This document shows, in pieces, positions 2,935 through 59,508 of a stretch of DNA of 64,000 nt (position 1 is its first letter; every line of letters starts with the position of its first letter). The position numbers and the translations under genes were made by a program. The stretch is taken from positions 682,001-746,000 of the forward strand of contig NZ_MDDN01000001.1 of assembly GCF_001708185.1 (NCBI RefSeq), read 5' to 3'. The notes beneath the pieces are model-generated. The model did no database searches, had not been told where the DNA came from, and saw only the letters and a program-made list of their open reading frames with translations. Source of the stretch: Lysinibacillus xylanilyticus (GTDB lineage: Bacteria; Bacillota; Bacilli; Bacillales_A; Planococcaceae).

Positions 2935-3066
2935 TTATACTTCGGCATAATTGCGTCCGGAATTGGCTTTGTGCTAGCGGCAGCGGCAGATGTTTTTTGC
3001 GCGAAAGCGAAGCGTCAGCGGCAAGTGTTTTTTGCCGAAAGCGAAGCGTCAGCGCAGATGTTTTTC
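2935..3066. repeat. Dispersed-repeat fragments (family A then family B)
   Basis: 2935-2975 carries a diverged family A head (palindrome around TTCGGCATAATTG followed by GCGTCCGGAAT). 2975-3066 carries two copies of the family B inner motif GCGAAAGCGAAGCGTCAGCG, separated by TTTTTTGC. Both motifs recur in other gaps of this window. The fragment ends directly upstream of the TATAAT box (3072-3077) of the MBL gene. Confidence 0.7.
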
Positions 3067-3108: not shown

Positions 3109-3330
3109 ATGGTTATTATTAAGGATTCTTGGTTTACAGTAGAAGAAATTAATGAAGAAACGTTTGCAATAAGTGAATATGGACATTGGGAAAAAGTTCA
3201 TTCATTTTTACTGATCGGGACGGATAAAGCTGTTTTAATTGATACTGGTTTAGGCATCGATAACATTGAAAGAATATGTAATCAACTAACATCTTTACCT
3301 ATTACGGTCCTCACTACCCATGTTCATTGG
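3109..3330 (+). CDS. MBL-fold metallo-hydrolase, 5' part (exon 1), interrupted by the IStron
   Basis: First 74 codons of a metallo-beta-lactamase-fold hydrolase: strands TDKAVLIDTGLG and the start of the zinc motif, TTHVHW. The next residues of the HxHxDH motif (DH) are found only at 5328, after a ~2.0 kb insertion. Unspliced, the frame reads 8 more codons and stops at 3355-3357. Joining 3109-3330 to 5328-5894 gives an unbroken 262-residue protein with every usual metal ligand. An AAAGGGGCG ribosome site precedes the ATG. Family substrates vary widely (thioesters, lactones, nucleotides), so function is not assigned. Either the gene is rescued by group I intron splicing or it is dead. Confidence 0.85.
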
Positions 3331-3830
3331 GTAACTAAACTGTTACAACAAATTTAGACAAAACTATACAAACCTGTATAGAAGTATAGATTTATAACAG
3401 AATACCCTTCGTATCAAGCGATTGGTGCGAACTCCACGTTAATTGCTTTTAACTCCTAAAGCCTTGTGACCAAAGCGGAGCTGGAAACGGCAGACGTAAC
3501 GGTGCGAAAGCAGAAAAAACAACAAGGATGGCATAAGCTGAAAAAAATTACTCAGTGTCCGTAAAGGATCATCGTGACAACGGAAAACGGTAGCGCTAAG
3601 TGCTTTGGTAATGGATGTTTAGCAGCGAACTCCTAAATCTCTAATGAGACAAGGAAGACGTTCAACGACTATCTCCTTGAGGGAGAGTAAAACCGCAAGC
3701 GAATGGCGGAAGAAAAATGTGGCTCTTATTAAAAGATAAGATGAAGATATAGTCTGCGCTTATGTGAAAGCATAAGAGGTCTACTCGTGAGAGAAAGACT
3801 GCATGAAGGGTTGCGCCTTCGTGTGAACAA
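3331..3830 (+). ncRNA. Group I self-splicing intron catalytic core
   Basis: The P7 helix can be read directly: GACTAT at 3667-3672 (within TTCAACGACTAT, an R-type element) pairs perfectly with ATAGTC at 3749-3754 (within AAGATATAGTC, a classical S-type element). Between them lies a P8-like CCGC/GCGG hairpin. After S come P9-type hairpins (CTTATG/CATAAG at 3759-3776; TGAAGG/CCTTCG near 3804-3821). At the 5' end GGGTA (3329-3333) can pair with TACCC (3403-3407) as a P1 candidate, and CTATACA/TGTATAG (3364-3381) forms a strong hairpin in between. The 3' splice site would be the element's right end near 5327. No ORF lies in this part. Subgroup is not assigned. Confidence 0.85.
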
Positions 3831-3917
3831 GAAAAATAGATACAAATTTAAAAAATGTTAACAACCTCTCTAAATAGGGTAAAGTGATTTTATCATATTG
3901 AAAGGGAGGTGGTACGC

Positions 3918-5120
3918 ATGGAATTAATGTCCATTGGAAAATTTGCTAAACGTGTTGGTGTAAATGTTGTCACGCTAGGGACAAAGATCAGACTAAAACC
4001 AACTAAAGAACAAGAGGTTTTGTTTTGGAAGTCTGCGGGGACTGCGAGATGGGCTTACAATTATTTCTTGGCTGAAAGCGAACGTATTTATAACGACGAG
4101 AAGCGTACAGTCAAAGAGGGCGAAGTTCGTAAGAAAATCAATAACGAGCTGAAACCAACAACGCATAAATGGCTGAAGGAAGTCGGAAGCAATGTGATGA
4201 AACAGGCGGTGAAAGATGCCGATATTGCTAGAAAGCGTTGGTTCGAAGGCATGACTGAAAAGCCAAGGTTCAAAAGCAGACGAAGAAGTAAAGTTAGTTT
4301 TTATGTAAATTACGAAAGTTTAAAACGAACAAATGAAGGTTTTAGAGGAGAAAAGATTGGTAGTGTAAAAACTTGCAATGCGCTTCCTAAGCTTAAAAAA
4401 AGTCATAAATATTCGAATCCACGCATTTCGTTTGACGGACGAAACTGGTTCTTATCCATTGGGTTTGAGCAAGAATTTGAGCCATATGATTTGACCGACG
4501 AAAGTTTAGGAATTGATGTGGGTATCGAAAAATTGGCAGTTTGTTCTGATGGTGAGTTCAAAAAGAACATTAACAAAACCAAAGAAGTCAAACGATTAGA
4601 GCAAAAGTTGAAGCGAGAACAACGACAACTAGCTCGTAAGCTTGAAGCCAACACGAAAGAGTATACTAAAAAACGAAAGCCAATCTATAAAATACCTTTA
4701 AAGAATATGAAAAATATTCAAAAACAAAACACTGAAATTCGTAATTTATATAAGCGACTTAACGACATCCGAACAAATCATTTACATCAGTGTTCTAATG
4801 AGATCGTGAAAACCAAGCCATCTCGTATTGTAATGGAACATTTAAATGTAAAAGGTATGATGAAAAACAAACATCTGGCGAAGGCGGTAGCCGGGCAGAA
4901 GTTATATGAATTCAAACGGCAAATTCAATACAAATGTAAAAAATACGGAATTGAATTTATTGAAGCCGACAGATGGTTTCCATCATCAAAAACTTGTTCT
5001 TCTTGTGGACAAGTCAAATCAGATTTGAGACTGAAAGACAGATTATTTATCTGCTCTTGCGGATTAAAGATGGATAGAGATTTGAACGCAAGCATTAACT
5101 TAGCAAATTATTCAATCTAA
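3918..5120 (+). CDS. tnpB: TnpA(start)-TnpB fusion; RNA-guided TnpB nuclease of IS607 type
   Basis: About 400 residues. The first ~20 (MELMSIGKFAKRVGVNVVTL) are the MerR-like helix-turn-helix start of an IS607 TnpA serine recombinase; the frame then passes straight into TnpB (IRLKPTKEQEVLFWKS). The recombinase catalytic domain is gone. TnpB looks whole: RuvC aspartate in LGIDVGIEKLAV, glutamate in RIVMEHLNVKG, a CSSC...CSC zinc ribbon, and the last aspartate in DRDLNASINL. The ATG at 3918 is chosen for the GGGAGG site at 3904-3909. TnpB proteins cut DNA guided by an RNA made from the element's right end, favouring element retention. The short HTH stub is probably too small to bind DNA by itself. 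Confidence 0.9.
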   Translation: MELMSIGKFAKRVGVNVVTLGTKIRLKPTKEQEVLFWKSAGTARWAYNYFLAESERIYNDEKRTVKEGEVRKKINNELKPTTHKWLKEVGSNVMKQAVKDADIARKRWFEGMTEKPRFKSRRRSKVSFYVNYESLKRTNEGFRGEKIGSVKTCNALPKLKKSHKYSNPRISFDGRNWFLSIGFEQEFEPYDLTDESLGIDVGIEKLAVCSDGEFKKNINKTKEVKRLEQKLKREQRQLARKLEANTKEYTKKRKPIYKIPLKNMKNIQKQNTEIRNLYKRLNDIRTNHLHQCSNEIVKTKPSRIVMEHLNVKGMMKNKHLAKAVAGQKLYEFKRQIQYKCKKYGIEFIEADRWFPSSKTCSSCGQVKSDLRLKDRLFICSCGLKMDRDLNASINLANYSI

Positions 5121-5347
5121 GAAGCTTAACTGAAACTAAGCCTTAGATGTGTACGCAACGATACTGCGGAATTTAAGCCTTTGGAGAGTCATACAAAATG
5201 GTAGTAGCGTTTTGCGAAACCAGACTCGGAGAATAAGGAAGACACAAATACGAAAGTCGGAAGATATAAGTTGTGTCACAGTAGAGATGTCTACATTTTT
5301 TAAGAAATGTATATGTTTTTCGTATCGGACCATATTGGTAGTCATAG
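5121..5347 (+). ncRNA. Candidate right-end guide RNA (omega/reRNA) of TnpB
   Basis: The ~207 nt between the tnpB stop and the right end hold no conserved ORF but several short hairpin-forming pairs, as expected for the scaffold of a TnpB guide RNA. In TnpB systems the RNA runs through the 3' end of tnpB and the right end and takes the flanking DNA as guide; here the guide would start ACCATATTGGTAGTC at 5329, i.e. the MBL gene's 3' exon. This is inferred from position only. Confidence 0.45.
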
Positions 5348-5894
5348 ACAATTTGAGCATATTTACGTACACAAGGAAGAGGCTGATTGGCTAGTAAATG
5401 GCATTAAAAAGTTATCGATTGAACAGATCAGAAAAGACGTCAGTCGTGATATCACGATACCTACGCCCAAAACGTTTAATCCTGAAACATATAAACCTTT
5501 CCAAGGACAGCCCTCTGGTGTTTTAGAGGATGGAGATATTATCGATATCGGAAATAGAAAATTGACTATACTGCATACACCTGGCCATTCACCAGGGCAT
5601 ATATCTATTTTAGATCATAACAACGGTTATTTATTTACTGGTGATTTACTGTATGATAAAACGCCAATTTATGCTTTTTTCCCTACAACAAATCCAGTAG
5701 ATTTAGTAGATTCCTTAGAGAAGATAGCGAACTTACCTAATATTACGAAGATTTTCGGGTCTCATAATACATTGGGGCTTGATTCTTCTATTTTAATAGA
5801 AGTAAAACAGGCAGTTACTACGTTGAGAGAAGAGGATCTTGTAAAATTCGGTACGGGAATCCATCATTTTAACGGTTTCAGTGTTCAATTTTAA
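5328..5894 (+). CDS. MBL-fold metallo-hydrolase, 3' part (exon 2)
   Basis: 188 codons completing the hydrolase begun at 3109. It opens with DHIGSH, the rest of the HxHxDH zinc motif, and has the other ligands in order: histidine in TPGHSPGH, bridging aspartate in FTGDLLYD, and the last histidine in IFGSHN. No frameshift or stop is seen, so selection may still act on it, in line with RNA-level repair by the intron. A longer open frame starting at 5307 uses intron bases and is not thought to be a real start. A weak GGCA/TGCC hairpin followed by an A-rich run lies near 5954-5990. Confidence 0.85.
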   Translation, partial: DHIGSHRQFEHIYVHKEEADWLVNGIKKLSIEQIRKDVSRDITIPTPKTFNPETYKPFQGQPSGVLEDGDIIDIGNRKLTILHTPGHSPGHISILDHNNGYLFTGDLLYDKTPIYAFFPTTNPVDLVDSLEKIANLPNITKIFGSHNTLGLDSSILIEVKQAVTTLREEDLVKFGTGIHHFNGFSVQF

Positions 5895-28569: not shown

Positions 28570-28832
28570 AAGCCTCTCAATCCCTCAAAGGGACGAGAAG
28601 CTTATACTCGCGGTACCACCCTAATTGCAGCACAAAATTGTACTACCACTTAAAGCACGTTAACGTCGTGCATCACGAAATAACTTACTTCATTCAGTTA
28701 TTTAGCTCCGAAGTGATGTTCATTGTTATTTGCATGTTTGGGCTCACACTATCCCCAAATCGCTTAACTACGCCTAACAAATACTGTCTTCGTCTCTGCC
28801 TGTATGCATATCTGTTCAAAATAATTACTATT
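28570..28832 (-). promoter_or_regulatory. T-box riboswitch leader of ileS
   Basis: On the minus strand the conserved T-box AGGGTGGTACCGCG (28609-28622) is followed by a terminator, GCTTCTCGTCCC pairing with GGGATTGAGAGGC, and seven uridines (28564-28600). In stem I the sequence GAACATCACTT has an ATC (28715-28717) at the expected specifier position, which fits tRNA-Ile. Uncharged tRNA-Ile would stabilise the antiterminator. Confidence 0.93.
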
Positions 28833-30407: not shown

Positions 30408-30781
30408 CTGATTTCCGCTACGGGCTACTCGCTTTGTTGCTGTCGCTTCGCTTTCGCACAGATAAAACATTTGTTGCTGTCGCTTCGCTTTCGCACAGAT
30501 AAAACATTTGTTGCTGTCGCTTCGCTTTCGCACAGATAAAACATTTGTTGCTGTCGCTTCGCTTTCGCACAGATAAAACATTTGTCGCTGACGCTTCGCT
30601 TTCGCGCAGAGCAAAGCTTCCTGCGGGCGAGCGTCGAGCCGCTTCCTCCACTAAAGGAACGAAGGCTAAGTGCGTCACGTCCTGTGACAATGCCTTCGTA
30701 ACCAACATCGTGTTGGCCTCAGGGTCTCGTCTGTCTCGCTTTCCCGCGGGAGTCGAGTAGCCCTACGCTACAATCAGTTAG
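30408..30781 (+). repeat. Family B dispersed repeat, longest copy
   Basis: Imperfect terminal inverted repeats: the left end starts CTGATTTCCGCTACGGGCTA and the right end, reverse-complemented, starts CTGATTGTAGCGTAGGGCTA. Inside are five 37-bp units, a GCGTCGAGCCGCTTCCTCC block, and a hairpin module with ACGAAGGC/GCCTTCGT, GTCAC/TGTGAC and CCAACATCGTGTTGG. Short ORFs here run through tandem units and are not genes. Confidence 0.85.
30434..30618. repeat. Five tandem 37-bp units inside the family B copy
   Basis: Units start at 30434, 30471, 30508, 30545 and 30582. Each carries TTGCTGTCGCTTCGC and TTTCGCACAGATAAAACA; the last one is diverged. The unit occurs once in the family B copy at 33366. 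Confidence 0.9.
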
Positions 30782-33365: not shown

Positions 33366-33606
33366 TGGTTGATTTCCGTTCCGACTGAGCGCTTTGTTGC
33401 TGACGCTTCGCTTTCGCACAGATAAAACATTTGCTGCCGCTACGTTAACACTACGCTTTCGCACAGAAAACATCCGCTTCGCTGCAGGGTCTCGGGCCTA
33501 CACGATGTAGGTCACGAAGGCGTTATCACACAGGACGTGATGCTCTTAGCCTTCGTTCCTCTATCGCTAATCCCCAAGGAGTCGCTCAGTCTCCACTACA
33601 ATCAAC
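33366..33606 (+). repeat. Family B dispersed repeat, inner module inverted
   Basis: Left end GTTGATTTCCGTTCCGACTG; the right end reverse-complemented reads GTTGATTGTAGTGGAGACTG. The inner hairpin module (33495-33565) is the reverse complement of that in the 30408 copy: CTACACGATGTAG, CACGAAGGC ... GCCTTCGTTCCTC. Confidence 0.85.
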
Positions 33607-59284: not shown

Positions 59285-59508
59285 CAAAGCGAAGGTTGAG
59301 TTCCGTTCGGGTAGACGCTTCCCTAGGGGCGTACGATGAGCCGCTTCACTCGCGGCAGATCTCGGGCCAAGAGATGTTTTTGCGCGAAAGCGAAGCGCTA
59401 ACGTAGTGTCAGCGGCACGATGTTGGGCACTCAGTCATTGCCACTGGACGTGGCGTTCTTAGGCAGTGTTCCTCTTTAGCAGATGTTTGGACAGCTGAAA
59501 GAAGTTCA
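59285..59508. repeat. Family B copy with a family A tail
   Basis: Contains the family B blocks GTTCCGTTCGGGTAGACGC, GCGAAAGCGAAGCG, and the inner hairpin module CACGATGTTGGGCAC ... GTGTTCCTC, in the same orientation as at 33366. It then runs into GCAGATGTTTGGACAGCTGA, a remnant of the family A tail. Confidence 0.75.

Follow-up and report, generated by a model that had tools for sequence, protein, structure and literature searches.

What becomes of a gene when a mobile element inserts into the metal-binding motif of its product, and which parts does such an element keep? The question is raised by the window analysed here, a stretch of 64,000 nt from Lysinibacillus xylanilyticus, in which an MBL-fold gene is split by an element composed, in this order, of a group I intron, tnpB and the scaffold of a TnpB guide RNA (Table 1). 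The insertion point falls inside the HxHxDH motif, and the unspliced message thus cannot yield a working enzyme. Joining the flanks (CATTGGG/ACCAT) restores THVHW-DHIGS, with both exons open and in frame. When 32 genomes of the genus were searched with the 3' part of the protein, 13 close matches other than the window itself were found, all of which hold HxHxDHxG in one open frame of 244-307 codons. Nine of these 13 have TGGG at the insertion place, and one (L150, in genome G025) reads CATTGGGACCAT exactly, base for base across the junction. For 5307-5891, no NCBIfam MBL-family model reached its cut-off, the best being GloB with 46.2 bits against 200.8. Just upstream of the split gene lie two units of a 19-mer, CGAAAGCGAAGCGTCAGCG (3002-3020 and 3036-3054), and a third is found at 30586-30604; it has 67 exact occurrences in the genome of the window (26 on the plus and 41 on the minus strand, against 0 for a reversed-pattern control) and is often arranged in tandem with a step of about 36-37 nt.

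Table 1. Positions of the element, its parts and its host gene, and of other RNA features in the window
Feature	Position	Strand	Basis or remark
5' exon, first part of MBL-fold hydrolase gene	3109..3331	+	ORF; ends TGGG; homologs uninterrupted here
P1 5' strand: exon GGG and first intron bases UA	3329..3333	+	fold, pair probabilities 0.86-0.98
Whole IStron	3332..5328	+	1997 nt; TAAC...TCGTATCGG; 5' flank TGGG; ends common to 14/14 counted copies
Group I intron catalytic core (RF00028)	3384..3776	+	50.6 bits, gathering 50, E 6.9e-10; covariation
P1 3' strand / internal guide sequence UACCC	3403..3407	+	fold; invariant in 7/7 aligned introns
P7 5' strand GACTAT	3667..3672	+	read from sequence; inside RF00028 match
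P7 3' strand ATAGTC	3749..3754	+	read from sequence; inside RF00028 match
GAACAA motif after P9.2, IS part starts behind	3825..3830	+	sequence; rule from available text of PMC4227781
tnpA remnant, 20 codons, MELMSIGKFAKRVGVNVVTL	3918..3977	+	73% identity to Acetobacterium IS607-type TnpA residues 4-29
tnpB	3918..5120	+	400 aa from ATG 3918; listed ORF 403 aa from GTG 3909; RuvC D/E/D kept
CGATAC, predicted partner of GTATCG (5322-5327) at 3' end	5159..5164	+	RNAalifold, MFE
RAGATH-18, core of TnpB guide RNA (omegaRNA/reRNA)	5178..5240	+	69.1 bits, gathering 44.9
Right end GTATCGG	5322..5328	+	predicted 3' splice site after CGG; invariant in 14/14 counted copies
3' exon, rest of MBL-fold gene	5329..5894	+	Pfam Lactamase_B 46 bits on 5307-5891
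T-box leader	28586-28805	-	125.4 bits
Bacillaceae-1 RNA	30650-30716	+	75.4 bits
Bacillaceae-1 RNA	33497-33565	-	70.4 bits
Bacillaceae-1 RNA	59412-59478	-	43.1 bits

We assign the element to the group B (IS607-type) IStrons, as a Lysinibacillus member that has lost its transposase. Its group I intron lies on the 5' side and scores above gathering with RF00028 (class IA2 being the published definition), the IS part begins after P9.2 behind GAACAA, a GAACRA-like motif, and the IS607 serine recombinase (ORF A) persists as the 20-codon tnpA remnant. The ends read CATTGGG(3331)/TAAC and TCGTATCGG(5328)/ACCAT, so that the target ends in GG and the element in CGG, and TGGG...CGG is constant over 14/14 copies. 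A first-pass annotation had described a group I intron combined with an IS607-type unit, GG at both ends, a TnpB gene and a split MBL-fold gene, and this description holds up: RF00028 and RAGATH-18 are matched, the P7 strands lie where it placed them, the ORF at 3909-5120 passes Pfam and NCBIfam guided_TnpB cut-offs, and the homologs are uninterrupted down to an exact empty site. As it had proposed, blastn also recovered further copies, namely two in the window's own genome; neither these nor RAGATH-18 and the tnpA remnant figured in the annotation itself. Its boundaries, 3331-5327, denote the same element but are slid by one shared G. Its IS607-type unit is to be corrected in that no transposase is left, and its claim that such an element is uncommon in this kind of genome fails, because PMC4227781 (2014; in its available text) had already described group B IStrons from the B. 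cereus group (BcISt1) and from Lysinibacillus sphaericus (LsISt1), and we count 14 copies with intact ends in 6/32 genus genomes. We are thus dealing with a confirmed IStron of known kind and not with a new class; it is the miniature form, discussed below, that is little described.

Is the intron genuine? A GG-flanked insertion would be expected from TnpB and IS607-type ends by themselves, and a group I-like fold might have arisen by chance in an ordinary IS607-type insertion. We consider this extremely improbable in view of the Rfam E value, although the bit score lies just 0.6 above the gathering cut-off, and of the compensated pairs: in an RNAalifold consensus of seven introns from five intron lineages, 32/122 pairs, P3 included, show at least one compensated double change. 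This consensus is nested and therefore omits P7 (a pseudoknot with P3), and it draws the 5' end as part of a small hairpin rather than of P1. A chance fold is equally hard to reconcile with the 80% identity over 536 nt to an element of Clostridium tarantellae (L040), with similar elements in Acetobacterium and Viridibacillus, and with the sense bias of the copies, 13/14 of which have the longest frame over the joined flanks in the intron's sense. The exception, G018_C29, has an antisense frame of 96 codons versus 94 in sense, where the sense ATG overlaps the target. Insertion phases are spread (phase 1 in seven copies, 2 in five, 0 in two), which argues against a strong phase preference. Among 20 sources scanned, only L130 reached the RF00028 gathering score, and L040 has no RF00028 match despite its identity, so that Rfam is unsuitable as a test of absence. 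In many genus genomes, 36 nt of P7-P9 (element 412-447, window 3743-3778) are matched at about 92% in single places where no other element parts are found; these are perhaps other group I introns. Matches were also obtained in 103 phage records, none covering 80% of the query, which look like other group I introns, and in one plasmid record, from Selenomonas, with 72% of the query covered.

The predicted 5' splice site follows a G. GGGTAAC and TACCC show no variation across the seven aligned introns, and in the minimum-energy fold of the window copy the exon GGG together with U3332-A3333 pairs with UACCC (3403-3407), as it does in L042 and L189. The predicted probability of the U-A pair is 0.95-0.99 in these three and just 0.27 in L130; L052 and L040 fold differently at P1, and LsISt1 (L104) pairs the U with G. 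In the published group B model, according to the available text, the U-G pair lies one position away from the splice site, SrISt1 excepted (PMC4227781), whereas the window copy is predicted to have U-A, single-sequence folds being weak guides. If real, a P1 helix without a U-G pair would be informative about 5' splice-site selection after G by group I ribozymes.

The IS part likewise bears the marks of a guided nuclease. The window TnpB exceeds the cut-offs of Pfam OrfB_IS605 and Cas12f1-like_TNB and scores 284.2 bits with NCBIfam guided_TnpB (cut-off 100); its best PDB match, 8iaz (E 3.9e-71), is probably the ISFba1 TnpB, and the RuvC motifs GIDVG, MEHLN and DRDLNAS align between the two. A search for relatives of this TnpB found 151, of which 80 were kept. 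The gene, with its RuvC D/E/D, is followed by RAGATH-18, an RNA tied to IS607 TnpBs in the available text of PMC11061315. RNAalifold on 14 right ends found compensated changes in 14/40 pairs, and the CGATAC/GTATCG pair is present in 12/14 aligned rows and never varied; the folding energy of the right end is no better than that of shuffles (z -0.69, with 48/200 shuffles as good, and z -0.80 in a second test). The guide would be the first ~16-20 nt of the 3' exon, and the putative TAM, read from the 5' flank only, is TGGG, which differs from the AGGAG or GAGGG given for RAGATH-18 TnpBs in the accessible part of PMC11061315.

The transposase is lost. What is left of tnpA, about 20 codons (MELMSIGKFAKRVGVNVVTL, the TnpA start), is fused in frame to tnpB, while the TnpBs of relatives begin MILATKIRLKPT; the start codon and ribosome-binding site of tnpB are probably supplied by the remnant. 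The Acetobacterium TnpA used for comparison consists of MerR and Resolvase domains. A full-length TnpA match was found in 0/14 copies, G031a retaining a longer piece with a 106-codon frame, and an intact IS607 TnpA was not found in the window genome (G000) or in G001, where the matches are weak MerR/resolvase proteins (best E 2.4e-6 and 1.8e-6, respectively) in addition to the window remnant.

How widespread is the element? Some DNA match occurs in 18/32 genus genomes, and copies with both ends intact, each starting TAAC after TGGG and ending TCGTATCGG, number three in G000 (the window copy, C12 and C5), two in G001, four in G018, two in G020, one in G025 and two in G031. This count leaves out short matches and partial or truncated ones lacking both ends or the intron (G020 C11 and C33, G023, G031 C6, G013, G016, G026, G024, G019, G030). 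Three G018 copies are partly N (C28 in tnpB, C25b and C29 inside the intron), which makes their lengths or full introns uncertain. Nearly the whole tnpB region is present in 6/14 copies; the frame is open in the window copy, G018_C25a, G025 and G031a, contains a run of N in G018_C28 and is broken by stops in G031b. Among seven host proteins scanned, one matched leuC (319.6 bits over 200 aa, whole-protein cut-off 560), one a LuxS-type S-ribosylhomocysteine lyase (211 bits, cut-off 158), and further matches were to D-hydantoinase (243 bits) and amidohydrolase (178.9 bits, cut-off 153.75); two gave no match at E 1e-10 and one other a weak TetR-type match only. The left-truncated remnants in G020 C11 (L126), G023 (L129) and G031 C6 (L134) apparently share one host-gene site, which suggests an old shared insertion. 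A 2032-nt relative in G159 (L189) lies in sense orientation just upstream of a protein start, which we take to be secA-like.

How might host gene and element coexist? We consider it very likely that each transcript meets one of two fates and that a nuclease secures retention of the element. Carried on the MBL gene transcript, the element would in the first case be excised by its group I ribozyme from U3332 to G5328, behind a 5' exon ending UUGGG, and the MBL frame would be restored; the G at the exon end and the U at the intron start argue for this reading, since both are found in BcISt1, which RT-PCR showed to splice (PMC4227781, available text). In the second case, the unspliced transcript would serve as TnpB messenger and as guide RNA, its scaffold being RAGATH-18 and the right end and its guide the 3' exon sequence that follows. 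As 3' splicing parts scaffold from guide, one transcript can have one fate. Once the element has been excised as DNA, or when an empty allele comes in, TnpB and its guide would cleave the unoccupied site, TGGG/ACCATATTGG..., and repair from an occupied copy would then restore the element. Alternatively, the insertion may be dead, its intron splicing no longer and the MBL gene a pseudogene, as the missing tnpA and the marginal Rfam score might suggest. This is improbable, because the catalytic core is near-invariant between the aligned copies, the MBL exons are open and join in frame, the TnpB frame is intact, and other copies are found within genes that match leuC and luxS, and such genes are seldom dispensable when their frame is also intact.

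Which parts must such an intron-transposon keep? Eight of the 14 copies are minus most or all of tnpB, through seven different deletions, whose approximate junctions (last left base/first right base in element coordinates; blastn ends against the window copy, possibly a few bases off) are 534/1825 in G001a and G001b, 552/1834 in G000_C5, 587/1818 in G018_C29, 620/1740 in G020_C10, 625/1659 in G000_C12, 639/1402 in G020_C1 and 646/1384 in G018_C25b. RAGATH-18 (element 1847-1909) scores above gathering in 14/14 copies, with 59.8-69.1 bits in the full ones and 68.4, 68.2, 68.1, 67.8, 65.3, 54.2, 54.2 and 52.9 bits in the minis, and three of the seven right junctions lie no more than about 30 nt upstream of this RNA, a pattern noticed post hoc. 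G001a and G001b lie in different genes and differ in 11 aligned columns; they have a common junction and, as changes private to the pair, two substitutions and a one-base deletion, which indicates that this mini moved as a unit after its deletion, intact at its ends and ORF-less, as a MITE would. The site of G001a is contiguous in G031, G025 and G020, and that of G000_C5 in G001, G025, G030, G013 and G027. G001, a one-contig assembly (completeness 96, contamination 5), has no match to the window-family TnpB at E 0.001, so the move would have involved a helper that the assembly no longer contains. Among the matches listed for 261 family genomes, no further end-to-end mini was seen; in G260 and G159 the intron is separated from the right end by a long gap.

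It is a serious possibility, if one falling somewhat short of probable, that the minis are immobile decay products which keep RAGATH-18 only because the transposase cannot act without a long right end. RAGATH-18 may serve as element end as well as guide RNA, and the three lowest scores of the 14 all belong to minis (G000_C5 and G001a/b), which speaks against strict selection; in G000_C5 the CGATAC strand is missing as well. Immobility is contradicted by the shared junction and private changes of the G001 pair at two unrelated sites, one of them empty elsewhere in the genus, and a mere need for the end sits poorly with the ORF-less BcISt1, described in the available text of PMC4227781 as keeping only the IR stem sequence. 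We tentatively propose, as possible rather than probable, that the ORF-less minis are self-splicing MITEs that borrow transposase and TnpB from full copies in trans while bringing their own scaffolds, such that one TnpB would guard several loci. The window copy, as the sole intact family TnpB in its genome, would then serve three guide RNAs, those of window, C12 and C5, each with the first bases of its own 3' exon as guide. Related genomes with known empty sites offer a natural series (full copies, a copy without tnpA, minis without tnpB) in which one can ask what must be kept, whether guide RNAs act in trans with another copy's TnpB, and what share of transcripts goes to splicing or to guide RNA. 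The minis, which retain the guide RNA, are what deserves follow-up. In the open-licence literature we found no paper on them.

The first-pass annotation's prediction that splicing and guide RNA conflict on one transcript is sound, and such a conflict has reportedly been demonstrated already (Science 2024) for an IStron of Clostridium botulinum, said to resemble the window element in belonging to the IS607 family and in setting a group I intron against an omegaRNA on one transcript. LsISt1, listed among the group B IStrons that PMC4227781 defines in its available text, shares with the window copy the genus, the IS607 type, RAGATH-18 (64.8 bits) and a group I intron (at 43.7 bits, below cut-off); it differs in carrying ORF A and B, in a TnpB 45% identical to that of the window copy, in its length (2433 nt in L104), in its target ACGG and in the predicted U-G pair at the splice site. 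ISFba1 likewise has TnpB followed by RAGATH-18, but the accessible sections of PMC11061315 mention no intron and give AGGAG or GAGGG as TAM. The dsrA 'MITEtron' of Thiomargarita resembles the minis in joining a group I intron to a MITE-like part without transposase; unlike them, it is described in one host gene, and the available text reports no guide RNA; according to its authors, they came across no earlier account of IStrons containing MITE-like sequences (PMC4853749). BcISt1 of the B. cereus group shares much with the window copy in the available text of PMC4227781: it is IS607-type, inserts after GGG, starts with U and ends with CGG, its 5' exon ends in G, behind which it splices in vivo, and it has a truncated ORF A, a full ORF B and ORF-less variants, loss of the ORF region having been found to depend on ORF B in E. 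coli. Those variants occupy orthologous loci, as expected of vertical descent, and retain the IR stem only, whereas the Lysinibacillus minis occupy different sites and have kept RAGATH-18.
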